DNA of 11,623 nt, taken from assembly GCA_030622125.1 (NCBI GenBank), contig JAUXGM010000070.1, positions 1 through 11,623 on the forward strand. Direction: 5' to 3'. The notes beneath the pieces were generated by a model that did not search any database, was not told the DNA's origin, and was given only the letters and a program-made list of their open reading frames with translations. Each line of letters starts with the position of its first letter. The stretch's first letter is position 1. Shown here piece after piece: positions 151 to 11,253 of this stretch. Made by a program: the position numbers and the translations under genes. The DNA comes from a bacterium (GTDB lineage Bacteria > AUK180).

Positions 151-621
151 ATGAAATGTCCATACTGCGGTTCAAATGACTTAAAGGTTACCGACACAAG
201 AACAAAGGGAAACTATATTAAAAGAAAAAGGCAATGTGTTAAATGCAAAGGGACTTTTTATACCATTGAGGTGATTGATTTGAGTGAGGTAATGGTCCAA
301 AAGAGAAATGGAAGTTTGCAAGCGTTTAATAAAATAAGTATATTAAGGGGCTTAAAAAGAGCATTTAACAAGATCAATATAAGTGAGGAAGAGATAGAAA
401 ATATACTTGACAATATTGAAATGGAGATATACAGCAAAAAAACTAATATAGTAAAATCCGAAGAAATTGGTAATATCGTCTGTAAATACTTAAAAAAAGT
501 TAATGATATTGCATATCTTCGATTTTTATCCGTTTATAAAAAATATAATACACTCGACGAATTCAATGAAGAGATATCAAAATGTATAAACGAAAGAAAA
601 AAAAATCAAGAAAACAATTGA
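151..621 (+). CDS. nrdR: NrdR, transcriptional repressor of ribonucleotide reductase genes
   Basis: This 156-residue protein has the normal length and layout of NrdR, a cytoplasmic repressor that senses ATP and dATP and switches off ribonucleotide reductase genes. The N-terminal zinc ribbon has cysteines at 3, 6, 29 and 32, in the family pattern CPYCGS near the start and a second C-x-x-C. The basic stretch around residues 23-28 (YIKRKRQC) matches the conserved arginine-rich segment. An ATP-cone domain follows from about 47 to 137, with the family signatures KRNGSLQAFNK, the LRGL-KRAF helix and AYLRFLSVYK. No ribonucleotide reductase gene is visible here; one could lie left of the edge. The start fits a leaderless message. 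The last 16 bp overlap the 3' end of the convergent kinase gene, and a run of nine A (597-605) lies in the final codons. Identification is firm; its targets are unknown. Confidence 0.95.
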   Translation: MKCPYCGSNDLKVTDTRTKGNYIKRKRQCVKCKGTFYTIEVIDLSEVMVQKRNGSLQAFNKISILRGLKRAFNKINISEEEIENILDNIEMEIYSKKTNIVKSEEIGNIVCKYLKKVNDIAYLRFLSVYKKYNTLDEFNEEISKCINERKKNQENN

Positions 622-1427
622 GCAATTTTTTTTAGGTTATGATATTTAAAGTAGTTTGAAAGAAGTTCAAGAATAGTATTTGTAATTTTAAGGGAAACAT
701 TTCCCCTTTCAAGATTTTTTATATAGTAATTTAAGTGGTTTTTTGAAAGTTTCCATTTAATTATTTTCTCTCTATTGTAAAGAAATTCCTTAGGAACAGG
801 TGGTTTTCCGGTAAAAATTCTAAAAAGAATTATTCCCACAGCAAAGTAATCGAGCCCTTTTTTTGGATTTATATTTAAAAAAGCCCTTGGTGGCATATAG
901 TACTGTGAACTGAAAAGGGAATAACGATAACTTTTTGTAAAGATCCGCTTAAATATATTGATCTTCTCAGGAAACTTGACATAGTTAAAGAAAAAATCGG
1001 TTATTTTTGGAGTAAGAGATGGTTCTTCTATTATGATATTCGCCGGCTTGAGATCTCCATGAATAATATTATTTGAATGCAGATCATTGATTCCGAAAAG
1101 AATGGTCGCAGCAAAATGATTGGCAAGCTCTAATGATATATGCCTTCCGTATTTCTTTAATTGGATGAAATCATTAAGTGGAATTCCCTGAACAAATTCA
1201 GTGAGGATGTTTATTATGTCTTTTTCATAAGTAATATTAAGAACCTTTGTAAGGTAAGTGGAATTTAGAGAAATCAATTTTTCTTGTATTACTCTTTTTT
1301 CCATTTTTTTTATTACTTTCAGATATGAAGAATGTATTTGTTTAAGAAAAAATATCTTTCCATCATTTATGACCTTGTATGACTCACTGCTTATTGAGGA
1401 TCTTATTCTTATTCTTTCCATATACAA
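606..1427 (-). CDS. Hanks-type protein kinase with degenerate motifs
   Basis: This 273-residue protein (from the TTG at 1427) is a single kinase domain with no visible membrane segment or sensor domain, so it is probably cytoplasmic. Recognisable elements are a candidate ATP-binding lysine K29 (FFLKQ), a candidate alpha-C glutamate near 43-49, the catalytic loop HGDLKPAN (D125, N130), the metal-binding aspartate D144, and the later helix DYFAVGIILFRIFTGKPP. Several motifs are altered: the glycine-rich loop is missing (serine-rich RSSISSESY instead), HRD is HGD, DFG is DFF, and APE is replaced by MPPRAF. The core catalytic residues remain, so ATP binding and weak activity are possible; it could also be a pseudokinase scaffold. 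Two starts compete: TTG 1427 lies five bases after an AAGGA site, and ATG 1421 lies eleven bases after it. It is divergent from the winged-helix gene and converges on nrdR with a 16-bp overlap. Its substrate is unknown. Confidence 0.85.
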   Translation of the reverse strand: MYMERIRIRSSISSESYKVINDGKIFFLKQIHSSYLKVIKKMEKRVIQEKLISLNSTYLTKVLNITYEKDIINILTEFVQGIPLNDFIQLKKYGRHISLELANHFAATILFGINDLHSNNIIHGDLKPANIIIEEPSLTPKITDFFFNYVKFPEKINIFKRIFTKSYRYSLFSSQYYMPPRAFLNINPKKGLDYFAVGIILFRIFTGKPPVPKEFLYNREKIIKWKLSKNHLNYYIKNLERGNVSLKITNTILELLSNYFKYHNLKKIAQLFS

Positions 1428-1507: not shown

Positions 1508-2260
1508 ATGAAGATTTTGTCAACAGCGAATATTAAAAAAACAATTTTAAATGGGGATATAACCTATATCTTTAAAAACCCTTACTTTTTAGGTTTGGAT
1601 CTCAAATTATTTTCCAATGATTTTCAGGTTGAGAATTTTGATATCTTCAATAAATTCGGATTTAATTATAACAATATCGAATTAAAGAAAAAGAATCTGA
1701 TACTTAACAGCAATGGCGGAATAGAACCATTCATCAACTATATGAATATAGATTACCTTTTTGAATTGATGGATTATTTAAGGAATAATTATGAACATAT
1801 CGGTATGATTTTATCGGGAAAAGAAAAAAGAATTATTGCCCCGAACGATGATTATTTCTTTATTGATTTAAAGGATGAAGATAAAATTATGGAACCGTTT
1901 TCCCAACTTGATGATATCTATATTCAGTTTTTTCAATCGGTTACTTCCGGAATATCAAATGGTCGATTTTCTATTAACAGTATTTTGGAGATACTATCGA
2001 ATGGTGAACCGAAACGGTTATTTGAGATAGCAGCATTATTAAATAAAAAGCCGGGTGTTGTCAATGTTTACCTCCTGCGTCTGCTTGAACGAAATTTTAT
2101 TTTAAAGAACAAAGAAAAAAGATATTTTATACCATCACACCATTTTTGTAAAAAGATGACGGGTTGCCATTTAAAGGTAGATAAAATTGAATTAAATGAG
2201 GAGGTGGAGAAAGAGCGATATGAAAAAAAGAAAAAAAGCGATTTTGATTATCTTAATTAG
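1508..2260 (+). CDS. Unrecognised protein with C-terminal winged helix-turn-helix
   Basis: This 250-residue protein is not recognised as a whole. Residues about 155-210 look like a winged helix: a helix (INSILEILSNG), a helix-turn-helix (RLFEIAALLNKKPGVVNVYLLRLLERN, about 170-196) and a short wing (ILKNKEKRYFIP). This resembles the DNA-binding end of MarR/ArsR-like regulators and of the C-terminal domain of some archaeal-type ATPases. The first 150 residues show no known motif; they are mixed alpha/beta with many aromatic and acidic residues and could be a ligand or protein-binding domain. No membrane segment is evident. The C-terminus is highly charged (EEVEKERYEKKKKSDFDY) and is coded where the gene overlaps the start of sppA by 41 bp. 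As first gene of the operon, divergent from a kinase gene, it may be a local regulator and a kinase target; that is inference. Confidence 0.7.
   Translation: MKILSTANIKKTILNGDITYIFKNPYFLGLDLKLFSNDFQVENFDIFNKFGFNYNNIELKKKNLILNSNGGIEPFINYMNIDYLFELMDYLRNNYEHIGMILSGKEKRIIAPNDDYFFIDLKDEDKIMEPFSQLDDIYIQFFQSVTSGISNGRFSINSILEILSNGEPKRLFEIAALLNKKPGVVNVYLLRLLERNFILKNKEKRYFIPSHHFCKKMTGCHLKVDKIELNEEVEKERYEKKKKSDFDYLN
2199..2210 (+). promoter_or_regulatory. Ribosome binding site deciding the sppA start
   Basis: AGGAGGTGGAGA lies inside the end of the preceding gene. Its GGAG at 2206-2209 is ten bases before the ATG at 2220. An upstream in-frame ATG at 2196 has no such site, and starting there would place eight extra charged residues before the signal peptide, so 2220 is preferred. 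Confidence 0.65.
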
Positions 2261-4499
2261 TATGATTTTGTCGCCTTTGTGGTGTCAAAATCTTTCCTTT
2301 GTGGATGATTTTAGGGTAAATTCACTGGATAAAAATCCTGCGAACTTATTTTATAATAAATTTTATGATCTTTTTTTATTTATTGAGAGTGATGGGAATA
2401 CACACACACGATTTATTTATAACACGGGATTTTTAAAATTTTCAGGATTTTCTTATATCTTTGATAGTGGAATTAAAAAAAACACAGGACTCTTTAAATA
2501 TCAAATCCCATTTTTTTACGGTAAGAATTTTGCAATAGCCGGCTCTCTTAATTTTCATTCATTTACAAATAACTGGAAATTCGATCTTTGGGGATCAATT
2601 GGTTTTACCTATCATATCAATGATTGTGTCGGTATAAGCGGAGTATACGACAATATTGGAAATGTAAAGAATCCTTATGAAGAGGAAAAGATATCTTCTT
2701 TTTTAACACTGCGATTAAATAATATTTTTTCATTACAAGGCGAACTTATCGGGTTTGATGAGATAAGAGAATATGGTGCTTCATTAAACATAAGACCGAT
2801 AAAAGGTTTGGAAATGTCCATTGTCTATAAAAATAAAGATGACAACGAATACGCAGGTTTTAATCTTTCACTTGGATTTGATATGACATCTGCATACATA
2901 GGATATTCTAATGGAATAGATGATGAAAGTAATTATTATAAAATAGGAATGGCAATGGGAGTTTCAACCGGTCCTATTATAAAATTGAAAAAGAAGATCG
3001 CAAAACTTATTATTAAGGGGAAATATAATTTTTTCAGTTCATCAATCTTTTCTAAAAAAGAATCATTATATCAAACTGTAAAGTTATTAGAGAAGATATA
3101 TGCGGATAAGAAGATAGAGACACTCTACATTTTGATCTATCAGAATAACCTAACACTTTCCCAAATGTATCAACTTTCATCCATTATAGAAAAGATACGA
3201 GATAGTGGAAAAAAAGTTGTTACATATCTTGCCGATAACCCAATCACATTTAAGAATTATTTTCTTGCAGTTCAAGGTGATAAGGTCTATGCTCAACCGG
3301 ATGCAACATTTATGTTGACGGGTATTTATTCGCAAACTCTTTACTATAAAGGTTTTCTCAATTTTATTCGCATTGATCCTGAGGTCGTGCGGCCTGATGA
3401 ATGTGTTTATAAAAGTGCAGTTGAACCGATGACAAACAAGAAACCGAGTAAAAAAGCCACGGAAAATAGAGAAAGCATATTAAGATCCATATTTGATAAT
3501 TGCACGGATATCATTAGCAAAAGAAGAATTATGAATCTTAGTTCTCTTATGCTTTTGATAAATAATTTTCCGATAATGACAATAAGTGAAGCAATAAAAT
3601 TCAATTTAATAGATGAAAAATACTATGAAGAAGATTTTAAGGACAAATTTTTAAAAAAAGCACAAAAAATAAAATCGGAGTATAGGGACGATTTTTACAA
3701 GCCGTTACCAAAGATCGCTATCATTCCAATGAAAGGAACGATCCTTCAGGGTGGGATCTTTTCTCCGCTTTTGGGAAATACGATCACAAATAAGAAGTAT
3801 AAAAATATATTCAGGTATATTGAAAAAAATAAAACCATTAAAGCAGTTATTATTTATGTTGATTCCCCCGGCGGATCTGCGTTTGAATCGGAAAAGATAT
3901 ATCATTCGTTAAAAAGATTGGAGGCAAAAGGCAAAAAGATCTATGTTTATATGGATAATGTAGCAGCTTCCGGAGGGTATTATATATCGGTGGCTGCTGG
4001 AAAAATTTATGCTACACCTTATACTATTACAGGGTCCATAGGTATCTTTTTTGCAAAATATTATATCGGCAGATTTTTTAAATTATTTAAAATCAACAAT
4101 GATACTATAAAAATCGGTGATAGATCCGATTTTTTCAGCCCTTTTTATAAGTGGGAAAAAGGGGACTATGAGATTATGAAAAACCATTTGGATATATTGT
4201 ATAAGCGTTTTAAAATGAAAGTAGCAGATGGAAGACAATTAGAATACAACAGAGTTGGTAATTACGCAAGAGGAAAGATCTATACAGGCGATCAGGCATT
4301 AAAAATAAATTTAATAGATAGCATCCTGCCATTTCAAGATATGGTAAAAGAGGTGTGCAGTGAAAATAATATTAAGTATGACGAAAGAAGGGTCAAGGTA
4401 TATGATTTTAAATGGAATATAATATTGGGATTAAGGTATTTTACCAAAATGCCTAATATTTCCAATTATAACCTCTGGATGTTATACTTAGGAGATTAA
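2220..4499 (+). CDS. sppA: SppA-type signal peptide peptidase (S49) with N-terminal barrel-like domain
   Basis: This 759-residue protein is a double-domain (67K-type) S49 serine protease, the family that degrades cleaved signal peptides and other membrane-associated peptides. Residues 1-22 (MKKRKKAILIILISMILS then PLWC) form a signal peptide; the residue before Cys22 is Trp, so this is not a lipobox. Residues about 23-250 are extra to the family: roughly twelve to fourteen short amphipathic strands with Gly/aromatic alternation and an NPA motif at 39-41, as in PorV/FadL-like outer-membrane proteins. The first S49 repeat (about 255-470) holds the general-base lysine K398 in YKSAVEP. The second (about 495-700) holds DSPGGSAFESE, the nucleophile S584 in VAASGGYY, and TGSIGIFF. 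The Lys/Ser pair split across the two repeats matches E. coli SppA, so it should be active. It overlaps the upstream gene by 41 bp and ends one base before clpC. The barrel assignment is by eye; a non-barrel beta domain is possible. Confidence 0.9.
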   Translation: MKKRKKAILIILISMILSPLWCQNLSFVDDFRVNSLDKNPANLFYNKFYDLFLFIESDGNTHTRFIYNTGFLKFSGFSYIFDSGIKKNTGLFKYQIPFFYGKNFAIAGSLNFHSFTNNWKFDLWGSIGFTYHINDCVGISGVYDNIGNVKNPYEEEKISSFLTLRLNNIFSLQGELIGFDEIREYGASLNIRPIKGLEMSIVYKNKDDNEYAGFNLSLGFDMTSAYIGYSNGIDDESNYYKIGMAMGVSTGPIIKLKKKIAKLIIKGKYNFFSSSIFSKKESLYQTVKLLEKIYADKKIETLYILIYQNNLTLSQMYQLSSIIEKIRDSGKKVVTYLADNPITFKNYFLAVQGDKVYAQPDATFMLTGIYSQTLYYKGFLNFIRIDPEVVRPDECVYKSAVEPMTNKKPSKKATENRESILRSIFDNCTDIISKRRIMNLSSLMLLINNFPIMTISEAIKFNLIDEKYYEEDFKDKFLKKAQKIKSEYRDDFYKPLPKIAIIPMKGTILQGGIFSPLLGNTITNKKYKNIFRYIEKNKTIKAVIIYVDSPGGSAFESEKIYHSLKRLEAKGKKIYVYMDNVAASGGYYISVAAGKIYATPYTITGSIGIFFAKYYIGRFFKLFKINNDTIKIGDRSDFFSPFYKWEKGDYEIMKNHLDILYKRFKMKVADGRQLEYNRVGNYARGKIYTGDQALKINLIDSILPFQDMVKEVCSENNIKYDERRVKVYDFKWNIILGLRYFTKMPNISNYNLWMLYLGD
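4490..4495 (+). promoter_or_regulatory. Ribosome binding site of clpC
   Basis: AGGAGA lies in the last codons of sppA, five bases before the clpC ATG. With only one base between the sppA stop and the clpC start, translation of the two is probably coupled. Confidence 0.75.
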
Positions 4500-4500
4500 T

Positions 4501-6957
4501 ATGGAAAATTTTTCAGAAGAATCAAAAAGAGTATTAAAACAGGCAAGCGAATATGCATTAAATTTAAATAGTGAATTGTTAGCGCCCGAACATGTTTTTT
4601 TAGCTCTTTATGATTTGGGAGAGAATGATCTTGCAACTACATTCCTTGTCAAGAAAGGGATAGAAAAAAAATCGGTAATAAAAAATATCAAGATGATTGA
4701 AAGTCCGAAGCTTCTTTTTCCTTTTATACAAATATCGCTTTCTCCGAACACCAAAACACTACTTGATATAGCGAAAAATGAAGCAATGACCTTAGCAGAA
4801 GAACTTGTTCAACCGAAACATCTTTTGCTCGCATTGTTGAAAATAGAGGATAGTTGGGCATATAAAATAATTCAAAATCTTGGTTACTCTCCAAAGGATC
4901 TCTATAAGGAATTTTTTATGATAGTTTCAAGAAGGACGGGGAAAGGGAAACCGCTTTTTCGCGAAAAAATAGTAAATAAGGAAATTAGTAATATATCCAC
5001 TACCTCGACTTTGGATGAATTTTCTCGTGATTTGACTAAACAAGCTGCAAACGGTAAACTTGATCCTATAATCGGGAGGGAGAAAGAAATAGAGCGACTT
5101 ATAATGATATTGATGAGACGGAAAAAAAATAACCCTGTTCTAATAGGTGAACCCGGAGTCGGAAAAACTGCGATAGTAGAAGGACTGGCACAAAATATTA
5201 TTAAAGGCGATGTTCCGGAGAATTTAAAGAATAGAAAGATAAAAATGCTTGATCTTGCAGCAATTGTAGCAGGAACCAAGTATAGAGGGCAGTTTGAAAG
5301 TAGAATGAAGAAACTTCTTAATGAAATCCAGAATGCCAATGATATTATTCTTTTTCTTGATGAATTGCATCTTCTTGTTGGAGCAGGTGCAGCGGAAGGC
5401 TCATTGGATGCCTCATCAATGCTCAAACCGGCACTTGCAAGAGGAGAGATACATTGTATCGGTGCTACGACATTGGATGAATTTAGAAAACATATTGAAA
5501 AGGATCGTGCACTTGACCGAAGGTTTCAAAAGATACTTGTTAAAGAACCCGGAATGGAAGAATCAATAAAAATACTTGAGGGAATAAAAGATAAATATGA
5601 ATCATTTCATAAAGTTATTTACACAGCGGAGGCTATAAGAGCAGCAGTTACCTTATCAAAAAGATACATTACCGATCGGTTTTTGCCTGATGAGGCAATT
5701 GATCTCATAGATGAAGCAGGTGCCAATGTCAGAATAAATGCGATGACACTTACACCCGAACTTCTATCTTTTGAAAAAAATATAGAAAAACTAAATAAAG
5801 AATTTAAAATGTATCTATCAAATCAAAATTTTCTAAAAGCTCAGGAAAAAAATAATGAACTTGATGATTTGAAACAGGAATATCAAGAGAAAAAGGAAAA
5901 GTGGATAACAAAAAAATTAAATGAGATAAAAGTTGTAGATGAAAATATCATTGCCGAGGTAGTTTCCGATACTACCGGAATTCCCGTATATAGGATAGCT
6001 GAAGCGGAAAGTAAAAAACTTCTGAGAATGGAGGATGAACTCCACAAACGGATCATCGGGCAATCGGAAGCGGTTACGGTTCTTTCAAAGGCGATAAGAA
6101 GAGCTCGTTCGGGGATGAAAGATCCGAAAAGACCGATCGGTTCATTTATATTTCTCGGACCAACCGGTGTCGGAAAAACAGAACTTGCAAAAGCCCTTGC
6201 AGAATTCTTATTTGATACGGAAGATTCCTTAATTAGAATAGATATGTCGGAGTTTATGGAGGAATATACTGTTTCAAAACTTATCGGTGCTCCTCCGGGG
6301 TATGTTGGATATGATGAAGGTGGGCTTCTTTCCGAACAGGTAAGAAGAAGACCATACTCGGTAATTCTATTTGATGAAATGGAGAAAGCACATCCGGATG
6401 TGTTCAATATATTGCTGCAAATATTGGATGACGGTAGATTGACGGACGGAACAGGCAGGGTTGTTGATTTTAAGAATTCCGTTATTATATTTACCTCCAA
6501 TATTGCTGCTATGGAAATTGCGGGTACAAAGAAAATGGGATTTGAATTGAAATATTCGGAAGAAGATGACTATGATCAAATGAAGGCAAAGGTGCTTGAA
6601 TATCTTAAAAGGAGTGCTCGTCCTGAGTTTTTGAATAGAATTGATGAGATCATTGTTTTTAAAACACTTTCAAAAGACGAACTCTATCAGATCATTGATA
6701 TAATGCTTGATCAATTGAGAGAACGCCTTGTTACCAGAAACCTGAAACTAAAGGTCCCCAAAGCCGTAAAAGATGAAATATTGGAAATGGGATACAATCC
6801 ACAATATGGTGCAAGACCGTTAAGAAGAGCAGTTCAATCACTAATTGAAGATATGCTGGCAGAAGCACTGCTGAGAAATCAAAAGATGAATGATGGTGTG
6901 ATAAAATTAAAGAAAAAACAGGATAAAGTAGGATTTACATTTGAAAAAAAATCATAA
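4501..6957 (+). CDS. clpC: ClpC-type AAA+ unfoldase, ClpP partner
   Basis: This 818-residue Hsp100 ATPase unfolds proteins and feeds them to the ClpP protease in the cytoplasm. In order it has two Clp_N repeats (about 1-140), AAA+ domain D1 with Walker A GEPGVGKT (216-223) and Walker B LFLDELH (D287, E288), a short coiled-coil middle domain (about 420-470), AAA+ domain D2 with Walker A GPTGVGKT (553-560) and Walker B ILFDEMEKAH (D625, E626), and the D2 small domain to the end. The short middle domain marks ClpC rather than ClpB (longer coiled coil) or ClpA (none). The loop tripeptide MGF at 679-681 sits where ClpP-binding members carry LGF, VGF or IGL, so ClpP partnership is expected; clpP itself is not in the window. 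No UVR motif is obvious in the middle domain. It is the third gene of the operon, one base after sppA, and its last 17 bp overlap the inferred tamB start. Confidence 0.95.
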   Translation: MENFSEESKRVLKQASEYALNLNSELLAPEHVFLALYDLGENDLATTFLVKKGIEKKSVIKNIKMIESPKLLFPFIQISLSPNTKTLLDIAKNEAMTLAEELVQPKHLLLALLKIEDSWAYKIIQNLGYSPKDLYKEFFMIVSRRTGKGKPLFREKIVNKEISNISTTSTLDEFSRDLTKQAANGKLDPIIGREKEIERLIMILMRRKKNNPVLIGEPGVGKTAIVEGLAQNIIKGDVPENLKNRKIKMLDLAAIVAGTKYRGQFESRMKKLLNEIQNANDIILFLDELHLLVGAGAAEGSLDASSMLKPALARGEIHCIGATTLDEFRKHIEKDRALDRRFQKILVKEPGMEESIKILEGIKDKYESFHKVIYTAEAIRAAVTLSKRYITDRFLPDEAIDLIDEAGANVRINAMTLTPELLSFEKNIEKLNKEFKMYLSNQNFLKAQEKNNELDDLKQEYQEKKEKWITKKLNEIKVVDENIIAEVVSDTTGIPVYRIAEAESKKLLRMEDELHKRIIGQSEAVTVLSKAIRRARSGMKDPKRPIGSFIFLGPTGVGKTELAKALAEFLFDTEDSLIRIDMSEFMEEYTVSKLIGAPPGYVGYDEGGLLSEQVRRRPYSVILFDEMEKAHPDVFNILLQILDDGRLTDGTGRVVDFKNSVIIFTSNIAAMEIAGTKKMGFELKYSEEDDYDQMKAKVLEYLKRSARPEFLNRIDEIIVFKTLSKDELYQIIDIMLDQLRERLVTRNLKLKVPKAVKDEILEMGYNPQYGARPLRRAVQSLIEDMLAEALLRNQKMNDGVIKLKKKQDKVGFTFEKKS
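6929..6943 (+). promoter_or_regulatory. Ribosome binding site and TTG start of tamB
   Basis: TAGGA (6929-6933) is followed after seven bases by TTG (6941-6943), an ideal spacing. The codons that follow read MKKNHKIFLIFF, a typical basic then hydrophobic signal-anchor start. The frame then stops at TAA 6983-6985 unless a shift occurs in the T run. This start fits far better than the TTG at 7024, which has no ribosome binding site and would remove the membrane anchor. Confidence 0.7.
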
Positions 6958-9900
6958 AATATTTCTGATTTTTTTTTTGTTTTAATATTATTCATATCAA
7001 TCAAACTGTTTATACCGATTTTTTTGAGAAATAATTTTGATTTCAGATATAAAAAACTTGGAATCAAAAGCGGTAAATTAACATTTTTTGATGGAAAGAT
7101 CAATATATATGGAATAGATACCGAAATAAGATCACTTTCCATAAGGAAAATTTCTCCAAAGGGCATTTTCTTAGAGATCAATTCTCCAAAATTTTATCTT
7201 GAAGATATGGATTTTTTAAAAAAGATAAAAACAACGGACAGTAAAGCAAAATTATTTGTAAAAATAAAAAATGGGATACTTTTTTACAAGGAAAAAAATA
7301 TCGGTTCTTTTAATATTACAATTGATAAAAAAGGTATGATCGGAAATTTTCATAATTATATTTTGAAATGTCTATTTACATACTCAATGGATAATTTTTC
7401 TATTAGGTTTTCAAAAATTCCGTTCCTAAAAGAATTTAGTTTAGATTATGATCTCAATAATAAAAAGGGCGGTTTTAACAGTGCTCTCTTTTCAGGAGAA
7501 ATAACCAAACAAAAAAATAACTATCTCATTAATGGCAAAAATATTTCAGTTTACATTCAAAAAGGCAACATTGATATTAAAAAATTAGTCTATAAGGACT
7601 TTCAATTTAAAGGAAATATTAATCGTGAGAAAGGAATTTTGCTCGGAACAATTACAAGAGAATCTATGAAAAAAATCAATTTGCAGATAAGTAAAAAAAA
7701 TGCAAATATAATAGCATCGGATGGTACAAAACTTTTAACGATCCTTCCAAACGGCAACATCAACGGTTCCTTATTCTTAAATGATATTATAGGTTCTTCC
7801 CTCGACGGTAACCTTACAATTAATGGTAACATCAAAAAAACAGCAAAGATCGGATTTCAAAATATATCGTTGAACGGGCAATACATTGATTCTCTTTCCG
7901 GCTTAATTGATTTTGAAAAGAAAACATTACTTTTAAAAAATACGGGGCAAAAGATCACCATCTTTGTAAAAAATAACTTTTCTCTGTTTGAATGTTCAAT
8001 ATTCGATTATGATTTTTCATTTATCGCCGATCAAATAAGATCTATTACAAAAATTCCTATATCAACGGGGAAATTTGAAAATCTTGTCTGGTATATAAAG
8101 AGCGTAAATAATATGTACGGACACGGAAAAATAGTGAATATATCCAATAAATACATAAAAAAAGGAGCATTATTTTTTAAGAGGGAAGAATATCGGGATT
8201 TTTATACCTTTAAATTTAATTTTAATGACTATGCCTTATCGGGTAAATATGAAAAAGGTGAAATATTCGGTGATGGCGGAGGAACTATTTCGTTTAATGA
8301 TCTTCTTATATTTAAAGGATGCAGTTCATTCTCATATAAAAAAGATTTTACTTTTATCGATATAAAAAGCGGAAATTTAATTTTGGCAGAAAAGGAACTT
8401 CCAATCTCAGGTCGTATGGAATTTGAAAAAAACAAATTATACTTTAAGAAATTCAAATTACTGAACGGCAACATTAACGGAAGTATCGATCTAAAAAATA
8501 ATTCTTCTATCTCTACTATTGTGGATCTTAGTGAAATTGATGCACGACTTCCTGCAAAGAATGCAGTGGAATTCGGCAGAAGGAATAAAAACTTCTATCT
8601 GATAATTGATGGCAGCAATTTTTATTCTAATCTTATCTTTAGAAAATCGGATGTAATGATAAATAAGGTAAGATTCGAGTATGAAAAATTCAAACTTTAT
8701 TTTTCCGGTGATTATACAAAAAATATTCTTAATGGTTTTATGGAAGTAAATTATAATGAAATTTCAACAACAGGCAATGTTGCTTTTAATGGGAAAAGAG
8801 CATCCGGTTTATATCTGATCGATTCTCTAAAATATAGAAAAAATGAATTAAAAAACGGGTATGTAGAATTTAAACTTGGAGGTAAAATATATTTTGAAGG
8901 TAATTTTTCCGACCGATTAAGTTTTGACGGTCTATATACCGAGGAAGATCTTTCATTGTGTTTAAGATTGAACAATGTTGCATTAAGAGATATTTTTATT
9001 GATATGATCTATATTTCGGGAGACCTAAAATTGAATATAAAGGATGGAAATTTTGAAATATTAGGCGATGTTAACGGTACGGGAGATAGTATAAAAACGA
9101 AATTGTGGAATAGCGGACCTTTTAATTATTCAACTATCTTTGATTATAAGGATAAAAAATTAAATCTTGACTTTCTATTCATGAAGGGAAATAATCTTTG
9201 GATCATAGCTAAAGGCAATATTTCTTCTCAAAGGAACTATTGTCTAAGTTTCAATAAACTTATTTTAAAAAATGGTGAAAGGATACTTAATACTTCAGGG
9301 AATATCACAAGGATAAATGACTATTATCTTTTAGAACTTAATAGTTCAAAATTTAATTATGGTATAGATCTTTCTTTTTCAAGATTAAAATGGAATACAA
9401 TTACCGGAAATGTTTTTAAACTGGACAACCTTGTAGTTGATCTTGGGGTTGAAAAAATTTCAATGAAAGATATAAATGGAAAGATTGCTTCAAGCAAAAT
9501 AACGGGCAAATTTTCAGATGTGAATTTATTCGGTAAGATCATTGAAAATGGTAGGATTAGAATTGATATTTCGGAAAAAAACAGAATAATATTCGGCTTA
9601 TTTGAGCAGCTGAAAAAAAGAGAAACTGAATTTCTTAATGGTGATATAAGATATAGGGATCAAAAGTTTTACATAGACGATCTTCATTATTTTGGAGATG
9701 GCGGGAAACTTTCATTAAGGGGGACAATATCGGAGCACTATGCACTAACTTTGTATCTACGATCTTTTCTATTGGACAAAAAATTTGCCGATTTTCATAT
9801 TAAAAATAGATTTTCAGGTGAAATAAGTTTGGGCGGCTTGCTATCTAAACCGGAAGTATTTATGACCATAAATAGTAAAGATGGTAAAATCAACAAATTA

Positions 9901-11253
9901 AAATATAAGAAATTTACTCTCTCCTGCTATCTTGACAGAAATCTTTTGAGAATAAATCATTTTATATTTGAAACAAGGCTTTCACGGTTTCAGGTAAGTA
10001 ACGATACAAAAATATATTTGAAAAATATATATGCACATAAAGATTACCACTTAGGACTTTCAGGATATCTTTATATTGAGGATCTAAAAAAGATCTTTCC
10101 GAATATCATTTCATCGGGAAAAGGTATTATAAATATTGATGCTGCTTATCAGCCGGCGGGAAAAGTTCCTCTTACCGGTAAGGTCATTATTGATGGTAAA
10201 ATGAGATTAAGGCAGACATTTGAAAGGATCGAAGCAAAGGATCTGCTTTTACATTTTAGAAAAGACGGTATTTTTGAAAAGAAGGGGACTTTCTATGTTG
10301 ATGGTTATCCCGTTACAATAAAAAATGATGAGCAAAAAAATAATTTAAATTTTATTTTTAATAGACAATTCAGATTTAATCTTCCTTCTCTCGGTTTATC
10401 TATTCTTTGTAAAGGTACGGTTGGCATAAAATTTGACGAAAATATTGAAATTTTTTCTAATGATCTTTCCATAGCAGAAGGAAGTTTTCATTATAATCCA
10501 TTTGAATCCATAAAAAAAAGTAAAAAAGAATTGCCGATAAAACTAAATTTAGCGATCATTTTTAAATCGGTAAGATTTTATAACTTTTTCTATGACGGAG
10601 AAATTTATGGAAATATTGAACTTACCGGAAATTTGAATGCTCCTACACTAAGAGGAAATATAAACGGTTCTGCCGGTACTATTAAATTTTATGGGCGAAC
10701 ATTCAACATTGAAACCGGTAAGTTAACAATAGATCGTCATAGTTTTTTAAATTTAGTTGCTTCAAATGATTTTTTTATTGACAGAAAATATTTCGTTACA
10801 ATAAATCTTAGCGGGCAGTTGAAAAAACCAAATCTGGTAATTTCATCCATTCCCGAAAAAGATATAAAGACATTAAAGTCGGCTCTTTTTTCAAAAGGTT
10901 CTGTTGTAACCGGTTTGGATCTTCTCATTTCAAAATTGGAAACCCCGGATGATTTTTCCGGTTCAATCTTATTCAATGTTCAAAAATATGTGCAATTTAC
11001 CAACCTTAAAGTAGATATCAAATCTCCGATCTTAAAAAATTCTCCGACTGATAATGTGACATTTTCACTGATGAGCCACATAAAAAAATTTTCTATTGGA
11101 ACAAGATTTTCATTTATAAGAGAAGATGATGATAGTATTAGATTCTCTCCGGAATTTAATTTGAGTTTTAGGTATAACAGATTACTACAATTTAATTTTT
11201 TTATCGGTGGCGAAAAAAGGAGTATGCTTTTTGCTCCTGCAATTACTTTTTGA
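6941..11253 (+). CDS. tamB: TamB/AsmA-like intermembrane protein, frame broken at a T10 run
   Basis: This is a giant beta-rich protein of the TamB (DUF490) family, which bridges inner and outer membranes and takes part in outer-membrane assembly and lipid transport. From the TTG at 6941 with one extra T, it is 1437 residues. The restored N-terminus is MKKNHKIFLIFF followed by FVLILFISIKLFIPIFL, a clear inner-membrane anchor. Long AsmA-like repeats of short beta strands then fill about 35-1100, and a C-terminal DUF490 region follows to the end, with the hallmark NAPTLRGNINGSAGTIKFYG (near 1230), LTIDRHSFLNLVAS and the phrase LSGQLKKPNLVISSIPEKD. It ends in APAITF, with a terminal Phe as in outer-membrane targets and E. 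coli TamB. The uninterrupted frame only begins after the clpC stop (6958) and has no usual start before the TTG at 7024; see the T run at 6969-6978. No TamA/BamA partner is in the window. Family assignment is firm; the N-terminal structure needs the frameshift. Confidence 0.85.
6969..6978 (+). other. T10 homopolymer at the tamB frame break
   Basis: Ten consecutive T lie in the codons for the tamB membrane anchor. With ten T, the frame opened by the TTG at 6941 ends after 14 codons (TAA 6983-6985). With eleven T it joins the 1400-codon tamB frame and gives an unbroken membrane helix. The run ends in T TTT TTG, which also fits the X XXY YYZ pattern for -1 ribosomal slippage and would lead into the same frame. 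Error, phase variation, polymerase slippage and ribosomal frameshifting all fit. Confidence 0.75.

Follow-up and report, generated by a model that had tools for sequence, protein, structure and literature searches.

Homopolymer recoding in a chromosomal gene is known from dnaX, where the agent differs between species (PMC3711429): in some it is the ribosome, as in the -1 frameshift of E. coli, and in others polymerase slippage, as on the poly-A run of Thermus. In the transposases of IS elements two overlapping frames are fused by slippage, either at a run of nine A or by -1 frameshifting, and homologs keep the layout; by Baranov's criterion such conservation marks a functional site (PMC1088944, PMC4066793). 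The stable chromosomal gene prfB likewise yields its full-length protein only by recoding early in the gene (PMC12421855). Most known cases of obligatory recoding that is conserved belong to mobile elements; among chromosomal genes there are few, such as dnaX and prfB. In Buchnera and Blochmannia, whose genomes are AT-rich, polymerase slippage at long runs can rescue broken frames. Rescue by poly(A) slippage in these bacteria is mentioned in PMC5009743.

The locus described here is the start of tamB, an envelope-biogenesis gene that would depend on recoding across genera of a barely known candidate phylum. Like dnaX, it is a chromosomal gene with a homopolymer-based site. However, the dnaX site is internal, consists of A and gives rise to a second, shorter product, whereas the tamB run consists of T and falls within the membrane anchor, near codons 10-16, and any full-length product would need the shift. 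Two overlapping frames to be fused by slippage, in a layout conserved among homologs, are shared with the IS elements, but these are mobile, while the present cases are a long envelope gene and a kinase-like gene. The prfB site differs in being +1 and of another kind, and no stop-codon autoregulation is evident in tamB. The lesions of Buchnera and Blochmannia are recent and belong to endosymbionts, whereas the tamB break is common to several genera and in two genomes (G001 and G004, below) lies at a short run of six T (T6). From sequence comparison, we consider it quite probable that tamB, a chromosomal housekeeping gene, can be expressed in full only by -1 recoding, through ribosomal frameshifting, polymerase slippage or both. 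The kind of mechanism is already known (dnaX, IS elements), and the gene and lineage appear to be new; in the literature collection searched, no paper joined tamB with programmed frameshifting, nor HPr kinase with a programmed frameshift. Recoding of tamB would be unusual for its gene, for its place in a membrane anchor and for its age.

The clpC-tamB junction

The DNA analysed (the window) is a stretch of 11,623 nucleotides and forms the entire contig C23 of assembly G000 (2.08 Mb, 192 contigs). Its organism very probably belongs to Candidatus Uvuciota, the phylum for which AUK180 is a placeholder and whose three listed genomes come from deep-sea and from marine hydrothermal sediments (PMC11382960). 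Our comparison set comprised seven genomes of the phylum, five of them in the family of the window: G000, surveyed by sampled stretches, and four relatives with the tentative names JAGLWT (G001), JAGGYO isolate AUK180 (G002), CALMGJ (G003) and JAGLGN (G004). A scan of the genome contigs identified these four family relatives and none further. The features of the junction are as follows.

4501-6957, plus strand: clpC-like gene, Clp ATPase of 818 aa (Pfam AAA_2, AAA_lid_9, ClpB_D2-small, Clp_N)
6929-6933, plus strand: Shine-Dalgarno-like TAGGA in the sequence, 7 nt before TTG 6941
6941-6985, plus strand: zero-frame ORF from TTG to TAA, MKKNHKIFLIFFLF and stop, putatively coding for the basic n-region of the TamB signal anchor and the start of its helix
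6958-11253, plus strand: tamB frame, 1431 codons after the clpC stop, plus stop (Pfam TamB PF04357, E 1.5e-13)
6959-7023, plus strand: predicted signal-anchor helix spanning the junction (IFLIFF / FVLILFISIKLFIPIFL), from the translation of the -1 product
6969-6978, plus strand: T10 run, candidate slippage site; at the homologous place T10 in G002 and T6 in G001 and G004
6973-6979, plus strand: T_TTT_TTG heptamer in zero-frame phase; T_TTT_TTA in equal phase in G002 tamB and in the HprK-like gene
7024-7026, plus strand: TTG, first canonical start in the tamB frame, after the helix, without a ribosome binding site and without a counterpart in the relatives

The 3' end of clpC overlaps the start of tamB. 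The long tamB frame shares its register with clpC and runs without interruption from the TAA that ends clpC (6955-6957) to its own stop codon at 11251-11253; its first 22 codons hold no canonical start. A sequence-only reading had claimed that the frame lacks a credible start, and the bare TTG at 7024 bore this out. The TAGGA motif, the seven bases and the TTG at 6941 that it had proposed instead were all present, as was the T_TTT_TTG heptamer in the right phase. The frame opened by this TTG stops at TAA 6983-6985. From TTG 6941 to the end of the tamB stop we counted 4313 nt, 1 nt short of 1438 codons, in agreement with the earlier proposal that a -1 shift or one added T joins the n-region to the helix. 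The two frames unite in no other way; a -1 shift within T10 yields MKKNHKIFLIFFFVLILFISIKLFIPIFLRNNFDF, and only this joined product would carry an N-terminal signal anchor in the window. Its junction helix resembles the unbroken N-terminus of G003, MKRHKALGILILAVLVVVFLWLVLC. A point against recoding is that the ClpC C-terminus in part determines both the TTG and the Shine-Dalgarno-like bases, the TAGGA bases doubling as codons for its VGF. The C-terminal TamB domain scored 51.3 bits against a curated cut-off of 22.4 (PF04357), and the protein fell under the NCBIfam equivalog cut-off; on these scores we regard the product as a distant TamB. Full-length homologs were found in all four relatives, and a second TamB paralog lies elsewhere in each family genome.

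The break across the family

The gene order clpC-tamB is conserved in five of five family genomes. The sequence-only reading had called for comparing N-termini and run lengths in sister genomes, and this comparison placed the break at the same position, always -1, in G000, G001, G004 and G002, which represent three genera. TamB identity for the three relatives sharing the break is 27-33%. In each of them the tamB frame opens right after the clpC stop and is start-less, as in the window. A TTG within the clpC FEK codons opens a short basic frame that leads through the T's to a stop in all four genomes, and in the three relatives this homologous TTG is the sole canonical start of the zero frame. 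The N-termini, joined by a -1 shift except in G003, read:

Window: MKKNHKIFLIFFFVLILFISIKLFIPIFLRNN
G001: MRKRLKISLFLLIPAAAIVIFSAAGFLYIKKS
G004: MRKRLKIALFLLIPAAAIVIFSAAGFLYIKKY
G002: MRKIRKKNKHLLVFFFIFILLIGGYFLLKTYF
G003, unbroken: MKRHKALGILILAVLVVVFLWLVLCALVPVHLKKK

All four shifted products would display a basic n-region followed by a helix, as at the intact N-terminus of G003. A canonical start first appears in the tamB frame at codon 23 in the window, 100 in G001 and G004, and 103 in G002, and the roughly 100 start-less codons of these relatives fall in sequence that aligns family-wide. No sampled ORF of 250 codons or more was a stronger start-less outlier than tamB, either in G001/G004 or in G002. 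Differences between G001 and G004 tamB are distributed 26/29/81 over codon positions 1/2/3, indicating that the frame evolves as a protein, under purifying selection.

As G001 and G004 diverge by about 3%, we counted the broken genomes as three independent lineages among five genomes, a small number on which to base the recoding reading. In the ClpC tree G002 is outermost, followed by G000 and then by G003 with G001/G004 (supports 88/90 and 97/95). The unbroken G003 is therefore nested among broken genomes, which suggests that the break is probably ancestral and was lost in G003. Parsimony counts two changes for an ancestral break with loss in G003 and three for independent breaks; this difference is small, and the shared position and direction favour a single origin. 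An intact N-terminus without the T run, which the earlier reading thought would weaken a programmed mechanism, was thus found in one relative of four, G003, and the other three are broken.

Runs of at least ten T are rare in the window's genome, with about 36 in 2.08 Mb. We rejected this rarity as a main argument: with a helix this rich in Phe and the codon usage of the genome, a T10 is expected by chance with P of about 0.27 in the window and 0.21 in G002. Long runs are also not by themselves programmed, since intact coding T9-T11 runs occur in these genomes too. What stands above chance in our alignments is that four genomes share a -1 break at one position and that three of them have some 100 start-less codons.

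A base-calling or assembly error, with a true run of T11 and an intact frame, was the sober alternative of the earlier reading. Long homopolymers are error-prone, one extra T joins the tamB frames, and a gene at the lptC position of G002 is likewise one T short at a T10 while its orthologs are intact. However, the tamB break recurs in three separately assembled MAGs, in two of them at a T6 where miscalling is implausible, and an HprK-like gene (see below) carries an identical T9 in four genomes. General under-calling can be set aside, because most other coding runs of 9-11 A or T in these assemblies keep the frame, and long genes nearby are intact. We therefore consider an error improbable, and read the break as old and preserved rather than as a sequencing mistake.

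Phase variation, in which run length would differ between cells with T11 turning TamB on and T10 off, strikes us as equally improbable. Replication slippage is expected at a T10, and the lptC-position gene, broken only in G002, could be a phase-off allele. Yet the assembled state is off in all three lineages, the direction is always the same, and the T6 of G001/G004 is too short to vary readily. Of the mechanisms proposed by the sequence-only reading, frameshifting and slippage thus gain from conservation across genomes, whereas phase variation fits a same-direction break in three genera, once at T6, less well than recoding does.

Other broken genes and possible translation without a shift

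A systematic scan for other broken genes, with hits judged by eye, returned mostly 5' extensions or antisense frames, which were discarded; only tamB, the HprK-like gene and the G002 lptC-position gene stood. The second of these was located as follows.

L178:8504-9474 (G004); L253, minus strand (G001); L252, minus strand (G003); L254:3425-4398 (G000): HprK-related kinase-like gene with a -1 break at T9, TTTTTTTTTAARAAAC

This gene scores below family cut-offs. It is broken by -1 at a conserved T9 in four of the five family genomes (G000, G001, G003 and G004), and in G002 only its C-terminal part is present, at a contig end. G001 as a whole contains the motif T9-AAR at only two sites, and so does G004; one of the two is the HprK-like site. 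Downstream of the run no significant structure was found in G000, G001 or G004; in G003 two stems follow it, a small one after about 8 nt and a strong one after about 39 nt. The T9 is probably a second programmed recoding site. The third gene, for a lipoprotein after kdsC at the lptC position (G002, L115 ~2001, minus strand, G002:C133:12749-12758), carries its -1 break at a T10 in the signal peptide. It is without family match and unbroken in the other four genomes, and the G002 break may stem from a local mutation, represent a phase-off allele or reflect an error.

The HprK-like gene bears on two further explanations of tamB, both of which dispense with a shift. In the first, tamB would start at a non-canonical AUU, AUC or CUG in its own frame or be re-initiated after the short ORF. 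An AUU at 6961 in the window, a CTG overlapping the zero-frame TGA (CTGA) in G001 and G002 and a possible AUA start in another gene of the lineage speak for it. However, no non-canonical start codon is common to all four genomes and none has a Shine-Dalgarno sequence; such a start would also leave out the basic n-region, and in G002 half of the helix with it. The HprK-like gene would be left unexplained, as a stop just before the run closes its -1 frame in G001, G003 and G004, so that neither an alternative start nor readthrough from an upstream gene can serve there. We find this explanation slightly less credible still than error or phase variation. Readthrough of the clpC stop into a ClpC-TamB fusion is hardly credible: although tamB follows that stop directly in the clpC frame in four of four broken genomes, this coincidence follows from the TTG position and the -1 shift, the stop is TAA every time, and the fusion would put the anchor behind an 818-aa cytosolic ATPase.

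Candidate slippage sites and the putative recoding mechanism

Recoding of tamB would begin with translation from TTG 6941, within the last clpC codons, and proceed through the basic n-region to the U10 tract. There, part of the events would move to the -1 frame and continue for about 1425 codons to make the protein, and the remaining events would terminate at UAA 6983, releasing a 14-residue peptide. The slip would unite the n-region with the hydrophobic helix, and only the shifted product would be an anchored TamB. The agent would be either the ribosome, moving by -1 on T_TTT_TTN, or RNA polymerase, inserting an extra U. TamB output would be set by the proportion of shifted events and would likely be low relative to ClpC.

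Polymerase slippage is linked to runs of more than eight T, and slippage of the ribosome to heptamers like those seen here (PMC3711429, PMC4066793). The tamB runs of the window and G002 (T10) and that of the HprK-like gene (T9) exceed this length, and the two tamB runs contain T_TTT_TTT and T_TTT_TTG/A in zero-frame phase. No downstream structure was detected near the window T10 (z +0.4), and that of G002 is weak and distant. In G001 and G004 the run is only T6 (CTT TTT TAC), offering just the weaker U_UUU/T_TTT tetramer and permitting clean re-pairing of the P-site tRNA only. E. coli slippery motifs including U_UUU are generally weak without a stimulator, and stimulatory structures lie 5-8 nt downstream of the slip site (PMC4066793). 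A GC-rich hairpin (-20.1 kcal/mol, z -3.9) falls within this spacing in G001/G004, about 7 nt after the slip codon, and by analogy T6 and hairpin have the layout of a stimulated ribosomal -1 frameshift signal. Identity of the hairpin region between the two genomes was discarded as evidence, 71 nt at 3% divergence being uninformative. The same stem (G001, L133; G004, L134) lies in the tamB anchor codons, some 13-50 nt from where the T6 run begins; it is followed by TTTTT and may be an intrinsic terminator or attenuator between clpC and tamB; its loop is above the limit of the simple terminator scan.

Conserved shift direction in orthologs is the GeneTack criterion for ribosomal frameshifting (PMC3711429). 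Because the tamB orthologs keep their direction, and because of the T6 and stem layout in G001/G004, we lean slightly towards the ribosome over the polymerase in the window organism, where both may contribute. In G001/G004 the ribosome is the likelier agent; at the T10 of the window and G002 it could be either or both. With the unbroken G003, the family provides a natural series (T10, T10, T6 with hairpin, unbroken) for how recoding sites may arise, switch mechanism and vanish. More speculatively, and in our view less likely than not, tamB, the HprK-like kinase and the lptC-position gene of one genome may reflect a lineage-wide habit of expression only via -1 T-run slippage since the common ancestor, with tamB switching between bare T10 and T6 with hairpin and the slip rate setting envelope-protein output. 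There is also a warning here, as automated annotation truncates or discards such genes.

Starts of other genes in the lineage drew attention as well. A gene of about 930 aa after an AMMECR1-type-looking gene (L152 in G000, L153 in G002, L156 in G003) has no ATG, GTG or TTG near its expected start in G000 and G002. An AUA that overlaps the upstream stop (ATAG/ATAA), 6-7 nt after GAGGA, AAGGA or GAGG, is common to all three genomes and may be a non-canonical start; in G003 an in-frame GTG and ATG also lie nearby. Within the window, an SppA-type S49 peptidase gene (2196-4499) has a long N-terminal part without a Pfam match at the threshold used, and a protein-kinase-like gene (606-1427, minus strand; Pkinase, E 2e-25) has a frame that stays open for about 26 codons further upstream without a canonical start and with a T9 run therein.
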